From the NCBI RefSeq assembly GCF_012290005.1, contig NZ_JAAXMS010000005.1:310001-374000 (forward strand): a DNA stretch of 64,000 nucleotides, given 5' to 3'. The DNA comes from Crateriforma spongiae. GTDB lineage: Bacteria > Planctomycetota > Planctomycetia > Pirellulales > Pirellulaceae. Both the position numbers and the translations under genes were made by a program. Below, piece after piece: positions 46,519 to 60,858 of this stretch (position 1 is the stretch's first letter; the number at the start of each line of letters is the position of its first letter). Below the pieces are notes generated by a model. That model was not told the DNA's origin and made no database searches. It saw only the letters and a list, made by a program, of their open reading frames with translations.

Positions 46519-47811
46519 ATGCATTTTCGATTCATCGCTTCCTTGCTTCTGCCGATGATTGCCACCAACGCGATCGGAGTATCGATCGTTCATGCAAAAC
46601 AGTGGCAGGTTCCCGTGGCGGGGAACGCGTTTCTCGCCAATCCGAACACTCATGACCGGTCATTGCGACGTGATGGGCGTTTGATCATGCGTGATCCCGG
46701 CGAAACCTATTCGGTATTTTTTCACGTCAGTTCCGAAGTCCAACTGAAGCTGTCGATCGATGGGCGTACGCTTGGCGACAACAGCACGATTGGGGTGACG
46801 ATCGGTGACCGTATGCTGGACTGTGATTTGGTGGCAAGTCCCAAATCGTCGGCGGCCATTGGAACGGTTCGGGCACCGTCGGGTTACCTGCGTGTCGATT
46901 TGCAATTGACCGATGGTTCGGATCCGGCCCAGATCGAGCAATTGATTGTCGAAGCCGCCAGCGATGATTTGCAATTGGACTTTGTCAAGAACAACGACGG
47001 CAACATGTTTTACTGGGGACGCCGTGGTCCGTCGGTTCACCTTGCGTATCGGATTCCGCGAAACGTTGACCTGAAGTACGCCTACAGCGAAATCACGGTT
47101 CCGGTTGGCCAAGATCCCATCGGCTCGTATTTCATGACCAATGGATTCGGCGAAGGCTACTTCGGCATCCAGGTGAACAGCGAATCTGAACGACGAGTCT
47201 TGTTTTCGGTCTGGAGTCCCTTTCGTACCGATGATCCCAGCGAAATCCCGAAGGAAGATCGCGTGGTGACGCTTTCCAAGGGAACCGGTGTGATTGCGAG
47301 GGACTTCGGGAACGAAGGATCGGGTGGCCAAAGCTTTCTACGCTACGAATGGAAAGCCGGTCGAACGTATCAATTCTTGACCGAAGTGATGCCCGACGGT
47401 TCCGGCAATACGCGATACACGTCGTGGTTCGGCGACAAGGACACGAAGGAATGGAAACTGATCGCAAGTTTCCAACGGCCGAAGACCGACAAGCACCTTT
47501 CGGGATTCCATTCGTTCCTAGAAAACTTCTCGCCGGCGCTCGGCCATGTTCAGCGATCAGCCCAATACGGCAATCAATGGGTCTGTGATACCCAAGGCAA
47601 CTGGCACGAAGTCACCGCCGCGAAGTTCACCGGAGACAACACGGCACGTGGACGACACCGATTAGATTTCGCCGGCGGCAGTGACGGCGAAGTCTTCTAT
47701 CTAAAAAACGGTGGCTTCTTTTCGGATGCCGTCGAACTAGATCAAAGGTTCCAGCGGCAGTCCACGGCCCACCTTCAACCCGACATCGACTGGAAAAATT
47801 TGCCGCGATAG
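46519..47811 (+). CDS. Secreted DUF5077/DUF3472 protein
   Basis: Exported protein of 430 residues. Signal peptide MHFRFIASLLLPMIATNA, then a DUF5077-type beta domain (about 28-150; VPVAGNAFLANPNTH) and a DUF3472 domain (about 155-380; SVHLAYRIPRNVDLKYAYSE, GYFGIQVNSESERRVLFSVW, WKAGRTYQFLTEVMPDGSGNTRYTSW). This architecture is widespread in polysaccharide-degrading Bacteroidota and Planctomycetes, but no enzymatic activity is known. It probably binds or modifies a glycan. It converges with the arabinofuranosidase-like gene. Confidence 0.87.
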   Translation: MHFRFIASLLLPMIATNAIGVSIVHAKQWQVPVAGNAFLANPNTHDRSLRRDGRLIMRDPGETYSVFFHVSSEVQLKLSIDGRTLGDNSTIGVTIGDRMLDCDLVASPKSSAAIGTVRAPSGYLRVDLQLTDGSDPAQIEQLIVEAASDDLQLDFVKNNDGNMFYWGRRGPSVHLAYRIPRNVDLKYAYSEITVPVGQDPIGSYFMTNGFGEGYFGIQVNSESERRVLFSVWSPFRTDDPSEIPKEDRVVTLSKGTGVIARDFGNEGSGGQSFLRYEWKAGRTYQFLTEVMPDGSGNTRYTSWFGDKDTKEWKLIASFQRPKTDKHLSGFHSFLENFSPALGHVQRSAQYGNQWVCDTQGNWHEVTAAKFTGDNTARGRHRLDFAGGSDGEVFYLKNGGFFSDAVELDQRFQRQSTAHLQPDIDWKNLPR

Positions 47812-47901: not shown

Positions 47902-50328
47902 TCATCTTGGAATGACGAGTCCGATTACCGAGTTGGCCGGCACCAGGATCGGTTGATCCGGGGCGTAGTGAAAGTCGAAACGATACGGCTGGATCAAGGT
48001 CGGGTCATGCTCGTTGCCGATCAGCGGATGGCCCGCGGTCATCATCAGGCATTCCGCTCGGCGATTCGCGATGCCCGGCAAGCCCAATTGAAGCGACTGC
48101 CATGATGCCGATTCGCGGCTGATCAAAACCACGCCATAACTGTCTGGACGCTGAAAGACAACCGCCTTCACGCCGTCACTTTGCTCGTTGTTCACGGCCA
48201 AACGTGACTCGCCCCGGCACCATGCGTAAATGCAATGCATCGCATGTTCCGGCCGACCGTAAAACGCAGCATCAGGATCGGCTGTGGTCGGTCCCACGAT
48301 CTGGGAGAACCAGTATCCGTTGTACAGACACCATTTGTTGGCACCCACCACCAAAGGTGATTCGATCAGCGTACGCCACATGTCGGCAACCAAAACGGGT
48401 GACGTCACCGAGGTCATGAATTCTCGGTCCTTTGTGTTGCCCATTCCGAATTCGCTGATGATCGTCGGCAACGTGTGTCCCAACTGCTCCTGCATGATGC
48501 GTTCGACATCGTACAGCAGCGCGGGGATCCTATCGGCGCTTCGAGTGGCTGGACTGAACTGGTCCGGTCGAGCCTCCATCGCGCTCTTGGCAAGCTGAAA
48601 TCGCGGAGAATGATAAATGTGAAATTGAAAGGCGTCGGCGTAACGTCCGGCCTGTGCCAAAACGGTGGCGTTCCACTCAGGTTGGCTGTATCCATTCATC
48701 ACAACCGTGATGGACGGATCGCGTTCCTTCATCGCTCGAACGTACTTCGGAAAGGCTTTGGCATATTCATCGGCCGTGCAGGACCCCGTCGGATCGGGAC
48801 CATACGATTCGTTCCCGACCTCCCAGTACTTCACGCCGTACGGCTCGGGATGCCCGTTCTGGGCTCTCAGGCGGCCAAACGATGTGTCCACGGACCCGTT
48901 GCAGTACTCAACCCAATCCGCCGCCAATTGGACACGATCCGGCGCTGTCTTCAGGTAGGAAAACACGTAAGGATGGCGGACACCTTTGGGATGTTCGTTC
49001 GGGTCAATCCGTTGCGGATGATCTTTGCAGAAGGCCGTGGTGATGATCGGCGTGATGGATTCCCGCTGACAAAATTGCAGGAACTCGTCGACACCAAATC
49101 GTGCGATTCCTCGCCCGGTGCCGTCGTGATAGTTCAGAATTTCCCCGCGTGTTTCCAACGGGCCGACCGTGTCTTTCCAATTGAAAATGTCGGCGTTGCA
49201 TCCGCCTGGATACCGCAGAAACGTGATTCCCATCGGCCGAAAAAGATCCAGGAAAGGCTGGCGAAAGTTCCCCTGTCGCGAATCGTAAATCTCGTTGAAG
49301 TTCTGTGTGTTGACGTTGTTGCCGAATACCAAGGGTGCGACCGCGAATGTCTTTGACGCATCTGCAGTCAACGTCACCTGGGATGAAACATCGGCGCCGT
49401 TGATGATCTGCGATGTCCGTTCCCGCAAACAAGCGATCTCCAACACACGGTCGTTCAACGCTTGGTCCGAAAGGCGGGACAGGCCGGTGTGCAATTGATC
49501 GGCACGGGTGTCAAACGCGGTGGCCAAATTGGAAGCGAAGTCATCGAGACCGGGGGGACTCGGCCCAGACGACTCGGATGCTCCTGCCAACAGAACCTGT
49601 CTTGCGTCCGCGTTCCAATACTGTTTGGGGACATAAAGATCGTCCTTCATCAGTTGAACGGTTCCACCGGGCAGACGTTTCACTGTCAATGAATCTGCCG
49701 TCAGCGATTCGAAGGCGCGGCGTTGCTGCTCGGCCAAAAACCGCTCCAGTGATGCTTGATCGCGAAAACGCGGATCCACACGAATTGTAAGATCCGCCCA
49801 CGATGCTTTGCCGGAACAGGCTTGCATTCCAATGGATACCGCGGCCCATTCCAAATCCTCTGGCATGTTGACGACGTAGCGATGCCGTTGCCAATCGAAG
49901 GTGCCGAAGAAGTCGCTGAACTCGGTTCCGGAGTATTCCGGTTTGTTGGCACCCTTGGCCTTCCAACTCAGCATGGCTTTGGCGTTGTAGTAGTGTTCTC
50001 GCCCGGTGACCACTTTGTCAGCTTTTCGCCAAACGTCGATCAGAACAGCCTTTCCGGCGACCCGATCGATTGGCAACCGACGCGTAAAAGTGCGGGTGAC
50101 TCCGGCATCGATCGTCATGCTGATCGCCGGATTGCCGTTGGGACCCGTCACGCTGGTGACATGTGCTTTGTCATTGCGTACGCCCTGCCATGCGGGCAAC
50201 GTCGGATCTTCGAAGGTCTCGCGCAGGATGACTTCGCCCGGGCCCGATTCAGCCTGAGCCACTGCGCCAAATCGAATGAAAGCCACCAACGACAACAATG
50301 CAAAACACGAAACGAATCTGGGACGCAT
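47902..50328 (-). CDS. Secreted alpha-L-arabinofuranosidase-like (GH51-type) protein
   Basis: Exported clan GH-A hydrolase of 808 residues. Signal peptide, then a beta-sandwich module (about 30-190, possible CBM), a helical linker and a catalytic barrel (about 305-700) with a C-terminal beta domain. The putative acid/base is the Glu in VKYWEVGNESYGPDPT and the nucleophile the Glu in TIISEFGMG. FGNNVNTQNFNEIY and ITFLRYPGGCNADIFNW are typical of arabinofuranosidases. AAAGGAA lies close upstream of the ATG at 50328. It lies 202 bp downstream of the lyase-GH97 gene on the same strand, so the two may form an operon for one polysaccharide. Confidence 0.83.
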   Translation of the reverse strand: MRPRFVSCFALLSLVAFIRFGAVAQAESGPGEVILRETFEDPTLPAWQGVRNDKAHVTSVTGPNGNPAISMTIDAGVTRTFTRRLPIDRVAGKAVLIDVWRKADKVVTGREHYYNAKAMLSWKAKGANKPEYSGTEFSDFFGTFDWQRHRYVVNMPEDLEWAAVSIGMQACSGKASWADLTIRVDPRFRDQASLERFLAEQQRRAFESLTADSLTVKRLPGGTVQLMKDDLYVPKQYWNADARQVLLAGASESSGPSPPGLDDFASNLATAFDTRADQLHTGLSRLSDQALNDRVLEIACLRERTSQIINGADVSSQVTLTADASKTFAVAPLVFGNNVNTQNFNEIYDSRQGNFRQPFLDLFRPMGITFLRYPGGCNADIFNWKDTVGPLETRGEILNYHDGTGRGIARFGVDEFLQFCQRESITPIITTAFCKDHPQRIDPNEHPKGVRHPYVFSYLKTAPDRVQLAADWVEYCNGSVDTSFGRLRAQNGHPEPYGVKYWEVGNESYGPDPTGSCTADEYAKAFPKYVRAMKERDPSITVVMNGYSQPEWNATVLAQAGRYADAFQFHIYHSPRFQLAKSAMEARPDQFSPATRSADRIPALLYDVERIMQEQLGHTLPTIISEFGMGNTKDREFMTSVTSPVLVADMWRTLIESPLVVGANKWCLYNGYWFSQIVGPTTADPDAAFYGRPEHAMHCIYAWCRGESRLAVNNEQSDGVKAVVFQRPDSYGVVLISRESASWQSLQLGLPGIANRRAECLMMTAGHPLIGNEHDPTLIQPYRFDFHYAPDQPILVPANSVIGLVIPR

Positions 50329-50530
50329 GTTGGGGATTCCTTTGATGCTGGACGATGGCACCGCAGTGGTGTGTGAACCCATGCACTTCGGTCACCAGGC
50401 ATCGTACCTCCGGTCCTGCTCGTTCAGCGATGCGTCAACTTGATGCAGGCAGCATCGTGGAGTGAGGCAGTGGATCGATGGCCTCACAGACTCTGACGCG
50501 GTAGCCAATCCCTCGACTGTTGTCGGCCTC

Positions 50531-53500
50531 CTACGGCCGGTTGGTCGGGAAAATCCAGACCGCATGACCGCTGCCCTGGCTGATGGTCGCGTTGATCACG
50601 TCGTCGGCGGTGACATTTCGTGTATGAATCGACACCTTCAGCTTGTCGCGTGGATCTTCGGCGAAAATCTTCGCGGTGTAGTCGCCGGTATCCAAAAAGT
50701 CCAAAGGAATTTCCTGTTGTGTCGCTTCGTCCACGATCGTTCCCACGAACCATTGATCACCACTGCGGCGGGCGACCGTCATGGATTCGCCCACCACGCC
50801 ATGGATGACTTTGGAATCATCCCAAGTGGTCGGCATCGCTTTCCAAAATTCCAGCTCCGGAAACGACCGACCCGCATAACGATCGGCCTGGTCGTACCAG
50901 TGCAGGTATTGAAGCGGACTGTAAAAGACCACGCCCAGCGCCAGTTGGAACGAACGGCTGACCACGCGATTGTCCAAGTAGCACGGCGTGTAATCGCCGG
51001 CACCGGCGATCATCCGAGCAAAGGATGTGGTCAAGACGTTTTGTGGCGGATTGCGACGACTCGCTCGTTCTTCGTTTCCCAAAATGCCTTCGACGGTCAG
51101 CAAATGCGGGTAGGTGCGTTCGATGCCCGTCAGACGAAAATTGTCGTGAATGTCCACGACCAATTCATATTCCGCCGCCTTTCTAATACAGGCAAACAGA
51201 AAACGCATGTCTGATTGGCTGCGCCAATCGACGAATCCCATTTTGACTCCGGATAGACCCCATTGCCGGTAAGTCCGGAACGTATTGTCCAAGTCATATC
51301 TGGCCATCGCGATCTTGTTGATGTAACAGATAACGCCGATTCCGTGCTCGTCGGCGTATCGGATCGCTTCCGGCATATCGATTTCATCAATGACCGTCAC
51401 GGGATTCGATTTGGCGTCACGTTCCGGACCGTACCATCCGGCGTCAAAGTGAACGTACTGGTAATTGTTCGCGGCGGCGTAATCGACAATTGCTTTGGCG
51501 CCGGCAGTCGTCAGGCTGCTGCGCCAGACCTTGCCGGGCTTGATCCATGAAGTATCCTCCAACGCGCACGGCGGCGACAGATTTTGCAGCAGGTAGTGAT
51601 TTTCGACCAACGTCCCCGGTTGTTCGGAAACCATCACGACCCGCCATGGTGTCGACAAAGGCAATGATGCGGAAACCGTTCCGTGGCGGAAACGGCTGAT
51701 CAGACGGTTCGGCCCATTTCGATCCAACGACAGCGGGGCGTAGTTTTCCAGATCGCCTGCTTCAGCGATGGCCACAAAGTGCGCGTCGGTTTCGACCAAC
51801 AAAGGACGGATGCCATGGTCGCCCATTTCCGATAGACGGACTTTGCTGTATTCCGCTTGGGGATAATCGTCCCAATAGACAAAGTGATCTTCAGTGAACT
51901 GAAACTCTGTGTTTTCCGATTCGATCTTCAGTTCCGTCTTGCCATCATGATCCGGAATCACATAACGAAACGCGACGCCTTCGTCATAAGCACGAAAGAG
52001 AAGTGTCAAACGCCGTGGAATTTGGCTGTTATAGTCCTGGTCTGAGTCATCTGACTGGGATGATCGCAAGTGAACGATGCACTCATTGAAGGCATCGGGG
52101 TAATGACTCTTGGATCCAACCACAGGTTCCCAACTGGATTGTTGGCTTTTGGTTTCGGTACCTTCAACGATGTAGGGTGGTCGGAGATGTCCGCCGCCGA
52201 TCTCAAGCCCCAGCTGTGAGTTCGACAAGACGGTTTGGCCTTTGTAGGTGACTTGGTACTGTGGCGTTCCCGAAATCAAAGAAAAGTGGATCGCGTGGTT
52301 TTGCGATGGCGACATCACAACGATCGAATCATCCCCTGGGTTCGCCGCTTGCCCGGAAAACATCAACGTCTCCATGGCGGACGACTGATGACGTCGACGC
52401 CTACGTTCGCGTCGTTGCGGCGATTCTTCGCGATCACGGTCGACGCCCGCGCGGCTATCCGGACGGGACTGTGTCAGGAAGTCTTGTCGAAGCTTGATTG
52501 CGGCCATCCGCGTGTACGGTGCATTCAGACCCAAACGGCCCTCGTAGTGATTCAGGACCTTTTCGTACATCGGTCTCAATCGTCCACGACTGTCATCGGA
52601 GATGGACTTGTAGTGATAACGACCCTCGAAGCTTCGGTAGGGTTCGTACGGGACATCAAAACCCAGGTTGTACTTTGCCGTGTATTCAAATCCGGCCAAC
52701 AATCGATGGTCTAACGCCGCATACAAGTCGATGTCTTGATTCCAAGCGATTTCTGCGGTGCAGGCAAGGAAGTCCAAGCCCATCTGGGTGTGCGCTTGGT
52801 CACGCCCGCTTTCCTGGCACTGGCCCGAGGGTTTGAAGTAGTTTCCAATCGCGCCGTTGCCGTCGCCGGACAGAAAATAGTTTACCCCACGATCAAACAT
52901 GGCTTGATCATCCAGATACACGCCCATCGCCAACATGGTTTGCATCATGGATGCGTCCCAATTGCCGTTGGCTGAGGGATAGAAGTCTTTGATGATTGGG
53001 TAAAACACTTCACGCAGCATGCGGGCAAAGCGATCTTGGTCGGATGGTGACCAATCGTCCCAGGTGTGCTTCAGCAATTCCGCCGCATTGCAAAACTCAT
53101 AGCCCTCCATCCCGATCAGCAAACGCGCGTCATGGTTGGACACGGATCGCAGCGTGCTGGACCACGCATTCAAAATTTCCGCGGACTTTTCGGCATGGCC
53201 CCGATTGTCGGTCAATACCCACAGGACGGCGTGGCGATAGGCGGCACTTGCGTCATTACTGAAATCGGATGAACCGATGTTCGGTCGGTTATACGGCCCA
53301 CGTTCGACATGGGCATGTGGTGTGGGGTTCCAATTCAAATCGGCATACCGCGACGACCGCACGTCTTTCCACGCGTCTGCCCAAGGCTGATGGCCGGAAG
53401 CCAGTTTTGCTTTGACGAAAGCAATGTCATCAGCCGTGTGGCTGATTCCAGGGTGTTGGAATTCCGCATGTGACCAGGGACTCGCTGTCAAAGTGAAGCA

Positions 53501-53536
53501 AGTGATTGCGAAAAAGATGGGTAGGCAACGAGTCAT
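50531..53536 (-). CDS. Alginate-lyase-type / GH97 bifunctional enzyme
   Basis: Exported protein of 1001 residues with two catalytic-type modules. Residues 25-350 resemble the alginate lyase (alpha/alpha toroid, PL38-like) fold: FQHPGISHTADDIAFVKAKL, NGNWDASMMQTMLAMGVY and QESGRDQAHTQMGLDFLAC. A 40-50 residue Arg-rich linker (RRERRRRRHQSS) follows. From about residue 403 a complete GH97 enzyme begins: N-terminal beta-sandwich, barrel (YQYVHFDAGWYGPERD; SGVKMGFVDWRSQSD; LLTVEGILGNEE) and C-terminal beta domain. In retaining GH97 enzymes the position after VK-x is the Asp nucleophile; here it is Gly (VKMGF), as in inverting SusB-like members, which suggests an inverting alpha-glycosidase. The joint is in one uninterrupted frame. 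Confidence 0.82.
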   Translation of the reverse strand: MTRCLPIFFAITCFTLTASPWSHAEFQHPGISHTADDIAFVKAKLASGHQPWADAWKDVRSSRYADLNWNPTPHAHVERGPYNRPNIGSSDFSNDASAAYRHAVLWVLTDNRGHAEKSAEILNAWSSTLRSVSNHDARLLIGMEGYEFCNAAELLKHTWDDWSPSDQDRFARMLREVFYPIIKDFYPSANGNWDASMMQTMLAMGVYLDDQAMFDRGVNYFLSGDGNGAIGNYFKPSGQCQESGRDQAHTQMGLDFLACTAEIAWNQDIDLYAALDHRLLAGFEYTAKYNLGFDVPYEPYRSFEGRYHYKSISDDSRGRLRPMYEKVLNHYEGRLGLNAPYTRMAAIKLRQDFLTQSRPDSRAGVDRDREESPQRRERRRRRHQSSAMETLMFSGQAANPGDDSIVVMSPSQNHAIHFSLISGTPQYQVTYKGQTVLSNSQLGLEIGGGHLRPPYIVEGTETKSQQSSWEPVVGSKSHYPDAFNECIVHLRSSQSDDSDQDYNSQIPRRLTLLFRAYDEGVAFRYVIPDHDGKTELKIESENTEFQFTEDHFVYWDDYPQAEYSKVRLSEMGDHGIRPLLVETDAHFVAIAEAGDLENYAPLSLDRNGPNRLISRFRHGTVSASLPLSTPWRVVMVSEQPGTLVENHYLLQNLSPPCALEDTSWIKPGKVWRSSLTTAGAKAIVDYAAANNYQYVHFDAGWYGPERDAKSNPVTVIDEIDMPEAIRYADEHGIGVICYINKIAMARYDLDNTFRTYRQWGLSGVKMGFVDWRSQSDMRFLFACIRKAAEYELVVDIHDNFRLTGIERTYPHLLTVEGILGNEERASRRNPPQNVLTTSFARMIAGAGDYTPCYLDNRVVSRSFQLALGVVFYSPLQYLHWYDQADRYAGRSFPELEFWKAMPTTWDDSKVIHGVVGESMTVARRSGDQWFVGTIVDEATQQEIPLDFLDTGDYTAKIFAEDPRDKLKVSIHTRNVTADDVINATISQGSGHAVWIFPTNRP

Positions 53537-58729: not shown

Positions 58730-60325
58730 TCAGGGACGTCCGCTCTGGTAAAGCGATTGAATTTCTGCCTGCGATAACGCAGCGTCGAACAGGGTCAACT
58801 CGTCGATTTTGCCGTTGAAGTTGCGGATCTTTTGAGGGCTGTACTCCATCGGCGTACCCCAGTTTCCGATCTCGGTTTCCCCGAAACGCAGCTTGAAGTT
58901 CTCCGTTTGGATCGGCGATGATCCGACACGGCTTCCGTTGATAAAGTGGCTCACCTTCCGAGCCCGACTGTCGTACACCGTGGCCAAGTGCGTCCAGCGT
59001 CCCAGGTGCTTGATGTTAAGAATCGGTTTCGAGTCGTAGGCGACGTGGCCATCGGGAGTTTTGACACCCAACAGCAGCCGTCCATCGTTACGCATTTGCC
59101 AGTGCGCTTCACCAACTTCATAGCCGTTGGTCAGCATCAAGGCGATGAAAGGACGGTCGAGGCCGTCGATTCGGACCCATGCCGAGTAAGTCAGGGAATC
59201 GTATTGGCCAGGAATCTGCAAACGAATTCGGTCACCGGGGTGCTTGAATTCCAATGCGTCCTTGCCGGGCCAGCGACCTTCGGTCCAGCGGCAACCGATG
59301 ATTGCACCATCACGCTTTCCACGTTGGGCAAGATGGCTTTGCAACATGCGCCCCGATGGCTCTTCTTTGGCAAAGCCATAATGCAGGATCACTCTTGGGT
59401 CATTCGACTTCTGCGATTGGCCAACCTGCCATTGCCTCAGTCGAGCGGCGTCTCGCATGCCTGATAGTTCGGAAAGCTTTGAGGTGGAAACAAAGTCGAC
59501 CGCAGCATCCTGCGACTGAACAATCTCGCCGTCGGCCTCAATGACAGCGCTCTCGTTTTCGCCAAATTCCAATCGCGTTGCCAAAGCACGATGCGTGCCC
59601 GACTTGTACAGTTCAACCTTGCCGTCGAATACATGAACCGATGCACTGCCATCGCTGGCCACATCCATTCCAAACTCCGTGCCCAGATCCACAAGCTCCA
59701 CTTTGGGCGAAAGCACGGTGAATCCCTCCGCTTGCGGTGGAACACGAGCCCGCAGTCGTCCACGATGACAAATTAGACGGTCGGCACTGATAAATTCCAA
59801 CTCCGCCGGGCCTTCCACCACCAGCACCGCTCCGCGATAGAATTCAAGTTGAATGAGCCCTGATTCCAACGTGACCCTGCCGGGCGAAACACTGGATCCC
59901 ATGGCCAGTTGGATTTGACCGGACCAACGCGCGTCGTAACTTTGCGTGACGACGGCAACGCCTTCGTCCAGCAGTTCAGTGGCAAGCGACTCGGCTGGCC
60001 TGTCCGGATCGCCGGGCCAAAACACGATCAACAGAATTGTGGCACAAACCGCCAGCGCCATCGCAACAGCTGGCCGATTCCATGGATTGGTTGGTTTCTG
60101 GGCAAGTTTAGGCGAAGCGAAAGGTATTGCAGCCGAACTGCCGGACGGAGCGTCATCGCTAAGCATCGCGGTCAATTGCATCAGCTCCGCGAATCGTCGA
60201 CGCGCCCCGGGTTTGGAATCCAACAAGTGCTGCAATTCAGCGGACTGATCATTCGATAGATCGTCTTCGCGGAGCGATCCGACAAGTTCATCGAATCGAT
60301 TCCAATCACCAGTGGACTGACTCAT
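58730..60325 (-). CDS. FecR-LamG membrane anti-sigma-type protein
   Basis: Predicted single-span membrane regulator of 531 residues. A cytoplasmic N-terminus resembles anti-sigma domains (about 1-75; LLDSKPGARRRFAELMQL), then a membrane segment (about 86-103; VAMALAVCATILLIVFW), a FecR domain (about 125-260; VELVDLGTEFGMDVASDGSASVHVFDGKVEL) and a LamG/concanavalin-like domain (about 335-525). Its start overlaps the stop of the ECF sigma factor gene by four bases (ATGA), which points to coupled translation. The external LamG part may bind a glycan and relay a signal to the sigma factor; this is inference from architecture. Confidence 0.87.
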   Translation of the reverse strand: MSQSTGDWNRFDELVGSLREDDLSNDQSAELQHLLDSKPGARRRFAELMQLTAMLSDDAPSGSSAAIPFASPKLAQKPTNPWNRPAVAMALAVCATILLIVFWPGDPDRPAESLATELLDEGVAVVTQSYDARWSGQIQLAMGSSVSPGRVTLESGLIQLEFYRGAVLVVEGPAELEFISADRLICHRGRLRARVPPQAEGFTVLSPKVELVDLGTEFGMDVASDGSASVHVFDGKVELYKSGTHRALATRLEFGENESAVIEADGEIVQSQDAAVDFVSTSKLSELSGMRDAARLRQWQVGQSQKSNDPRVILHYGFAKEEPSGRMLQSHLAQRGKRDGAIIGCRWTEGRWPGKDALEFKHPGDRIRLQIPGQYDSLTYSAWVRIDGLDRPFIALMLTNGYEVGEAHWQMRNDGRLLLGVKTPDGHVAYDSKPILNIKHLGRWTHLATVYDSRARKVSHFINGSRVGSSPIQTENFKLRFGETEIGNWGTPMEYSPQKIRNFNGKIDELTLFDAALSQAEIQSLYQSGRP

Positions 60326-60858
60326 TGCACGCCCTCGGTTCGAAGTGTTTCATTGATGCAATCAAGTAGCATCGATTGAATTCGATTCAGCCTCTTGTAG
60401 ATCGCGACTCGGCTACGTCCAAGTTGATCGGCAATGGATGTAACGCTTTGCGCCATCTCAAATCTCGCGGTCAGCAACTCGCGTCCCGACGGATCGACCT
60501 TTTGCAGGCAACGCTGCATCGCATCGTGTCTTGCATCGGCCTCACAGCTGACCGCGACCGCTTCGTCGGCCAGCAACGAGAATTGCTGATCGTCCAGCGG
60601 AAGTGGCACAGACTTTTGTTTTCGTCTCCAGTTCAATATTGTCAATCGAGAAACGGCCATTCCCCACGCGGCGAAATCGGTGCCGCGTTCAAATTTGTCA
60701 AACTTTTGCCACAGCAATGCGCTGACATCCTGAAGAATGTCTTCGGCAGCAGCACGGTCGTGGACCAGCGTAAGAATGAATCCATAGATGCGCCGCTGGT
60801 TGGCAACCAACAGGCGAGAGAACACTTGGACCGTTTCGTCATCGCTTTCTGAGTTCAT
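60322..60858 (-). CDS. ECF sigma factor, Rhodopirellula/Verrucomicrobium subfamily
   Basis: RNA polymerase sigma factor of 178 residues. Region 2 is RRIYGFILTLVHDRAAAEDILQDVSALLW plus the promoter -10 reading segment KFERGTDFAAWGMAVSRLTILNWRRK. Region 4 is the C-terminal helix-turn-helix (SVTSIADQLGRSRVAIYKRLNRI). It fits the planctomycete subfamily typed by this region 2. It is followed, with an ATGA overlap, by the FecR-LamG gene. It probably controls genes for external substrates; target promoters cannot be named from this window. Confidence 0.92.
   Translation of the reverse strand: MNSESDDETVQVFSRLLVANQRRIYGFILTLVHDRAAAEDILQDVSALLWQKFDKFERGTDFAAWGMAVSRLTILNWRRKQKSVPLPLDDQQFSLLADEAVAVSCEADARHDAMQRCLQKVDPSGRELLTARFEMAQSVTSIADQLGRSRVAIYKRLNRIQSMLLDCINETLRTEGVQ

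Follow-up and report, generated by a model that had tools for sequence, protein, structure and literature searches.

An alginate-lyase-type domain and a GH97 protein with the residue signature of subfamily 97e joined in one reading frame of Crateriforma spongiae

In the stretch of 64,000 nucleotides of Crateriforma spongiae DNA analysed here (hereafter the window), an open reading frame (ORF) of the minus strand runs from an ATG at position 53536 to a stop codon at 50531 and encodes a protein of 1001 aa without internal stop (Table 1). An alternative GTG start lies 99 bases upstream of the ATG and would give 1034 aa; the ATG puts a stretch resembling a signal peptide, as judged by eye, at the N-terminus of the protein, and hydrophobic leaders likewise open the aligned relatives. 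The leader is followed by an Alginate_lyase domain (PF05426, aa 89-289, E 1.8e-19, 70.7 bits against a cut-off of 22.2) and by the three domains of a full GH97 protein, all four Pfam matches exceeding the curated cut-offs. The AlphaFold2 model of the whole protein, built from 30 aligned rows (pLDDT 85.7), exhibits two confident parts separated by aa 356-401 at pLDDT below 50, and how the halves are placed with respect to each other is uncertain (pTM 0.63); modelled alone from 16 rows, the lyase half reaches a pLDDT of 86.9. The single uninterrupted frame, the signal peptide, the alginate-lyase-type toroid domain and the complete three-domain GH97 moiety put forward by an earlier, sequence-only reading of this DNA, which named no strand, are all recovered on the minus strand, the signal peptide by eye and the toroid as a prediction, and the architecture supports its view that a lyase and a glycosidase would be exported on one chain. 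Their acting at once on one substrate, also proposed there, is a conjecture.

Table 1. Features of the fusion ORF and of its surroundings, in positions of the window
Feature	Positions	Strand	Remarks
Fusion ORF, 1001 aa	50531..53536	-	stop codon included; same ORF in G001
Signal-peptide-like N-terminus, aa 1-24	53465..53536	-	judged by eye
Lyase half, predicted (alpha/alpha) toroid, aa 25-355	52472..53464	-	Pfam and predicted model
Arg-rich low-confidence stretch with TLM motif, aa 356-401	52334..52471	-	lyase C-terminal tail, in a linker role here
GH97_N (PF14508), aa 407-656	51569..52318	-	Pfam, E 8.8e-50
Glu592, place of metal ligand Glu194 of SusB	51761..51763	-	
GH97 catalytic domain, Glyco_hydro_97 (PF10566), aa 668-902	50831..51535	-	Pfam, E 2.9e-50
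Asn740, place of inverting base Glu439 of SusB	51317..51319	-	
KMGF, aa 765-768; Gly767 where retaining GH97s have the Asp nucleophile	51233..51244	-	
HD, aa 797-798; Asp798 at the place of Glu508	51143..51148	-	
Glu816 (place of Glu526, metal ligand) and Glu822 (place of Glu532, metal ligand, proposed acid)	51071..51091	-	
GH97_C (PF14509), aa 904-995	50552..50827	-	Pfam, E 9.7e-22
Alpha-L-arabinofuranosidase-type gene (Pfam ASD1_dom)	47902..50382	-	next downstream; same order in G001
Gene for a DUF5077 and DUF3472 protein	46519..47811	+	next to the arabinofuranosidase-type gene, in G001 too
Sigma-70-type factor gene	60322..60858	-	
Gene for a FecR and LamG-like domain protein	58730..60325	-	follows the sigma-70-type factor gene

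In another genome of the genus (G001), the same ORF occurs with the same frame and junction, at 88% identity over 1001 aa. Between these two sequences, dN/dS amounts to 0.08 for the lyase half and to 0.18, 0.06 and 0.13 for the N-terminal, catalytic and C-terminal domains of the GH97 half, respectively; both halves are under purifying selection. Across aa 353-406 the ratio is 0.47, and the 24 codons of the signal peptide have a ratio of 3.1 at a dS of only 0.06 and with very few changes. A second leader is absent from the junction in the window's genus, and the stand-alone GH97 relatives carry their own. An assembly join or a sequencing frameshift between two adjacent genes, the objection that the earlier reading had raised against its own proposal, finds a point in its favour in a genome (G424, locus L037) whose two genes keep this order and frame and are separated by 87 bases, with stops in between, so that a lost stop alone would suffice to give a fused frame. 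An artefact is nonetheless rejected as extremely improbable because the ORF is shared by a second species at this level of identity and both halves are under purifying selection, with the tail conserved as well and the leader between the halves gone.

Regarding the lyase half, the best Foldseek matches of its model are alginate lyases, namely 3nfv (E 1.1e-5, TM about 0.5) and 1qaz (TM 0.65 by target length), and a second structure comparison gives Z 28.2 for 4nei (PL17), 27.2 for 4f10 (PL5) and 26.9 for 3nnb, titled alginate lyase, from Bacteroides ovatus; altogether, the PL17, PL5 and B. ovatus alginate lyases and the GAG lyases stand at Z 26-28 with 10-14% identity to the lyase half. Such matches of a predicted model fix the fold of this half, neither its family nor its substrate. 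At the sequence level, the 12 PDB sequences matched by the whole protein with phmmer are all GH97s, with no solved lyase among them, a lyase profile run against the PDB retrieves 3nfv only (E 0.0028 for the whole sequence, 0.08 for the best stretch, none being significant alone) and the Bacteroides finegoldii lyase used as query returns two ribosomal chance matches only. A bridge alignment of 12 lyases exhibits conserved NW, QE..R.Q and D..Y positions, from which no base of the PL5 type could be named and no catalytic residue mapped.

The Arg-rich stretch, considered as a linker in the earlier reading, is actually the C-terminal tail of the lyase and may be sensitive to proteases. In 34 of 38 lyase ORFs, a TLM-like motif, searched with a loose pattern, comes soon after the domain, and tails with at least 8 Arg among their first 50 residues belong to 11 of the 38, six of which are stand-alone lyases that stop soon after the motif and thus end alike. 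Most stand-alone lyases of the family end in a short TLM[FY]-type motif preceded by a stretch that is often rich in Arg. In the window protein, the fusion point falls just beyond the TLM-type motif, that is at the end of the stand-alone lyases, as seen by comparing SGQSADDSVNEK-stop in one of them (L050) with SGQAANPGDDSIVV in the window. Besides, 12 of the 38 ORFs run on for more than 200 residues beyond the domain, and because of such long continuations, one of them into GH28, the lyase family is a repeated fusion partner. The ORF with the GH28 domain encodes 870 aa (L108, 6273-8882, minus strand), and another lyase (L038, 9759-12017, plus strand) has 378 further residues at its C-terminus, to which Pfam assigns no name, and lies beside a GH97 gene with the 97e signature.

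As for the origin of the fusion, loss of the stop from the lyase gene, and of the start region and the signal peptide from the GH97 gene, would have produced one exported chain. In the lyase trees, the window and G001 sequences group with the stand-alone lyase of L050, which comes from a different family of the class (97/93 and 96/92 support). In a GH97 tree of 45 rows, the same pair belongs to a starred clade of nine, its neighbours being stand-alone GH97s, mostly from its own family or from Rhodopirellula/Stieleria loci and each with a leader; a tree of 16 rows does not resolve this region. Another fusion, found in a Verrucomicrobiales MAG (G423, locus L034), falls outside the clade of nine and is placed elsewhere than the window pair in the lyase tree as well as in the 45-row GH97 tree. 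A common origin of the two fusions is disfavoured by AU tests against a single clade (p 0.045 for GH97 and 0.037 for the lyase, which are optimistic values as the group was named after the first trees had been seen), and the fusion of the Verrucomicrobiales MAG probably formed separately. At the junction of the latter (contig C431), AAGGAGG-CACA-ATG, of which AAGGAGG resembles a Shine-Dalgarno sequence, and then a GH97 leader are found between the halves, all in frame. This is an intermediate-looking state, with the stop lost and the start signals of the second gene kept, and since these signals remain, the locus may yield a GH97 protein on its own besides the fused one.

Whole-protein searches were run on genome sets that overlap. 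Among 60 genomes, the window's own (G000) and 59 relatives, 19 of the 60 give any match and two hold the fusion, G000 and G001. The same two hold it among 397 genomes of the class, 55 of which give a match at E 1e-40; G000 is the sole fused genome among 392 of its phylum, and G423 the sole one among 387 genomes from the phylum to which the Verrucomicrobiales MAG belongs, no more than two candidates having been scored per genome in the class set and in both phylum sets. Scanning 84,980 species genomes with a pattern gave 14 loci, where both halves share one frame in L034 only and form separate neighbouring genes in L037, L038 and L043. When G020 and G424, one genome reached twice with the same coordinates, are counted once, 18 distinct genomes hold both gene types: three with the fusion (G000, G001 and G423), four with the two genes within 5 kb (G020, G425, G429 and G053) and 11 with the genes farther apart or on other contigs. 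These co-location counts are descriptive, part of the genomes having been reached through resemblance to the query. The pairing is not obligatory, since the genes are apart in 11 of the 18 genomes and neither gene was found in most genomes searched. That homologues would always be separate genes, the other objection considered by the sequence-only reading, is contradicted by three fused species, though most homologues are indeed separate genes. In plasmid records, the lyase is found in 19 and GH97 in 75; among the best 60 of these 75, both occur together in three, all within the five best GH97 matches (chance figure of 3e-4, chosen after seeing the list). The Halomontanus and Sphingobium plasmid records hold a GH97 with the Gly/Asp signature, without a listed lyase.

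The modelled GH97 half is matched by GH97 structures (8wg1 with E 9.6e-48 and TM 0.79 by target length), and the SusB numbering was carried onto the alignment with 8wg0 by residue spacing, counted by hand. On this basis, the Glu residues serving SusB as metal ligands and acid (194, 526 and 532) are kept as Glu592, Glu816 and Glu822, with Lys765, Gly767 and His797 at positions 467, 469 and 507. In the portions of Gloster et al. (2008, PMC2670981) drawn upon here, inverting GH97s are marked by HHET, HE and K(T/S)GY and retaining ones by (K/M)(I/V)DF and HG; SusB is an inverting enzyme in which Glu439 is the base and Glu508 a ligand of the metal, and the loss of Glu439 costs this enzyme 250,000-fold on DNP-Glc. 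In the window protein, Asn740 and Asp798 replace Glu439 of HHET and Glu508 of HE, the marks of the inverting subfamily 97a, and KMGF replaces the (K/M)(I/V)DF motif with the Asp nucleophile of the retaining subfamilies 97b-d. Membership in the orthodox inverting as well as in the orthodox retaining GH97s is rejected on these residues.

Subfamily 97e is defined in the consulted part of Naumoff (2005, PMC1249566) by a Gly at beta-4 together with an Asp at beta-5, and one member from Bacteroides thetaiotaomicron (97E1_BACTH) and one from Rhodopirellula baltica (97E1_RHOBA) are mentioned there; Gly767 and Asp798 correspond to this pair of residues. The GH97 half carries the residue signature of 97e, the named members being compared by description only. 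Nearly this signature is seen in six outliers in the consulted portions of Gloster et al. (2008, PMC2670981), with KXG(Y/F), HD in most of them, Gln at position 194 and no Glu439; devoid of base and nucleophile, they are there considered as inactive or using another apparatus, and assignable to neither mechanism. From these partial accounts, we infer by signature that the outliers and 97e are the same group, again with the named 97e members compared by description only. Among 71 distinct GH97s, a biased set gathered by similarity to the window (72 rows, one of them a copy), Gly and Asp are each found in 66 and Asn at the place of Glu439 in 63, with Glu194 kept in 69, Glu526 in all 71 and Glu532 in 68. 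A GH97 of B. finegoldii with the same signature is 37% identical to the GH97 half. Neither family library gives an experimental function for this half, the best NCBIfam model, that of a retaining alpha-galactosidase, scoring 219.9 bits where its cut-off is 800. Of separate interest, a second GH97 paralogue occurs in G000 (C4:72357-73226, L003) and in G001 (L030) with the Gly/Asp signature and no Glu at the proposed acid place, where the alignment is uncertain (Ser in one alignment, Gln in another).

The Gly of VKMGF had been read earlier as a sign of inversion, which does not follow, as Gly comes along with HHET and HE in inverting GH97s and with Asn740 and Asp798 here; an inverting route through Asp798 is possible, though not implied by this Gly. 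That the GH97 half would invert in the orthodox manner of SusB, as then proposed, agrees with Gly767 at the nucleophile place and with the closest solved structures, 8wg0 and 8wg1, which are of FjGH97 and SusB-like with HHET, but is quite improbable given the replacement of Glu439 by Asn740 and of Glu508 by Asp798. Retention with Asp798 as nucleophile, suggested for 97e in the pages of Naumoff (2005, PMC1249566) referred to above, accords with the Asp found there in 66 of the 71 distinct collected sequences; the like suggestion for 97a failed, SusB being an inverting enzyme according to the same excerpts of PMC2670981, and this route is regarded as unlikely. The GH97 half could also be catalytically dead and act as a sugar-binding partner of the lyase, as the excerpts of Gloster et al. 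(PMC2670981) allow for inactive outliers; against this highly doubtful option stand the dN/dS of 0.06 in the catalytic domain, the metal and acid positions, which are preserved in almost every row, and a single residue constellation kept across phyla at about 35-42% identity. As a judgement rather than a result, inversion with a water held by Asn740 and Asp798, the latter as base, is tentatively chosen with a confidence a little below even, and some other catalytic apparatus, by judgement too, is conceivable though rather unlikely. The GH97 half would use a metal bound by Glu592, Asp798, Glu816 and Glu822, with Glu822 as the acid.

Next to the fusion ORF, the arabinofuranosidase-type gene is possibly co-transcribed with it; promoter and terminator scans performed no better than on shuffles. 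The order of the fusion, the arabinofuranosidase-type gene and the opposite-strand DUF3472-type gene recurs in G001, where the neighbours were recognised by their beginnings and not by Pfam. No SusC/D pair, sulfatase or GH88 was found among the scanned genes of the window neighbourhood, where glycosidase-type genes are present. GH88 enzymes act on unsaturated uronyl ends, in keeping with a lyase in the same locus. In Bacteroidota, a Hymenobacter locus comprises SusC/D, a lyase-domain protein, two GH97, a lyase, GH88 and a beta-L-arabinofuranosidase-domain gene, a Fibrella locus comprises SusC/D, a lyase protein of 1609 aa, a beta-L-arabinofuranosidase-domain gene, GH97, GH28, heparinase II/III, GH97, an esterase and GH88, and a B. 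finegoldii locus comprises a lyase, GH28, GH78, mannonate dehydratase, GH97, GH127, heparinase II/III and a second lyase; the Asn/Gly/Asp signature is found in all five GH97 genes of these three loci. Around the fusion of L034 lie three sulfatases, GH28 and a sialate-type esterase, and the stand-alone lyases of L106 and L107 adjoin sulfatases, in the latter case together with GH95 and GH43. Because GH88, GH28 and GH127 share the Bacteroidota loci and sulfatases flank the Verrucomicrobial fusion, the substrate is, by analogy, probably a uronate-containing polysaccharide; with no SusC/D, sulfatase or GH88 in the window neighbourhood, this view is borrowed from distant loci. A uronate-containing substrate, where the sequence-only reading implied a mixed polysaccharide, is supported by gene context only.

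Taken as a whole, the gene fusion is genuine and lineage-specific, and in its probable explanation the lyase half would cut a uronate-containing chain by beta-elimination and the tethered GH97 half would take an alpha-linked sugar off that polymer or off its fragments. The fusion is a rare new architecture of known families, with a GH97 half of unexplained catalytic type. No paper joining glycoside hydrolase family 97, fusion and alginate lyase was found, an unreported database entry being possible, and no characterised 97e member was met in the literature searched. By itself, the fusion is a modest curiosity since lyase-hydrolase chains such as CelAly exist; the main question it raises is how 97e enzymes work. 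GH97s with neither mechanism are a puzzle noted in 2005 and 2008, in the consulted parts of PMC1249566 and PMC2670981, to which a natural lyase fusion, together with GH88 in related loci, brings a concrete substrate class and a handle on the 97e mechanism. A bolder and rather doubtful proposal is that 97e would be a third catalytic class of GH97 that dispenses with the Glu439 base as well as with the Asp nucleophile and processes what this lyase family releases, the two enzymes forming a conserved module of Planctomycetota, Verrucomicrobiota and Bacteroidota welded at least twice.

Compared with known systems, the alginate lyases of PL5, PL17 and PL38 and the toroid GAG lyases share the Pfam Alginate_lyase domain and the predicted toroid with the lyase half, the likeness to the solved ones (PL5, PL17 and GAG lyases) remaining, at such low identity, at the level of the fold. 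On the GH97 side, the inverting SusB/BtGH97a and FjGH97 have the three-domain fold, the metal ligands and the acid in common with the window protein, from which their HHET base and HE motif are absent, whereas the retaining alpha-galactosidase BtGH97b/BT1871 (3a24) is alike in fold and has an Asp nucleophile in place of the Gly. Subfamily 97e and the six outliers of Gloster et al., as described in the excerpts used, have Gly at beta-4, Asp (HD) at beta-5 and no Glu439, as in the window protein; in these descriptions, the sole difference is the Gln of the six outliers at the place of Glu194, where the window has Glu592. Finally, CelAly from Aquimarina, a natural bifunctional enzyme (GH5-PL31), likewise combines a glycoside hydrolase and a lyase on one chain, but from other families and with activities demonstrated on cellulose and alginate, according to the part of its description considered here (PMC13235733).
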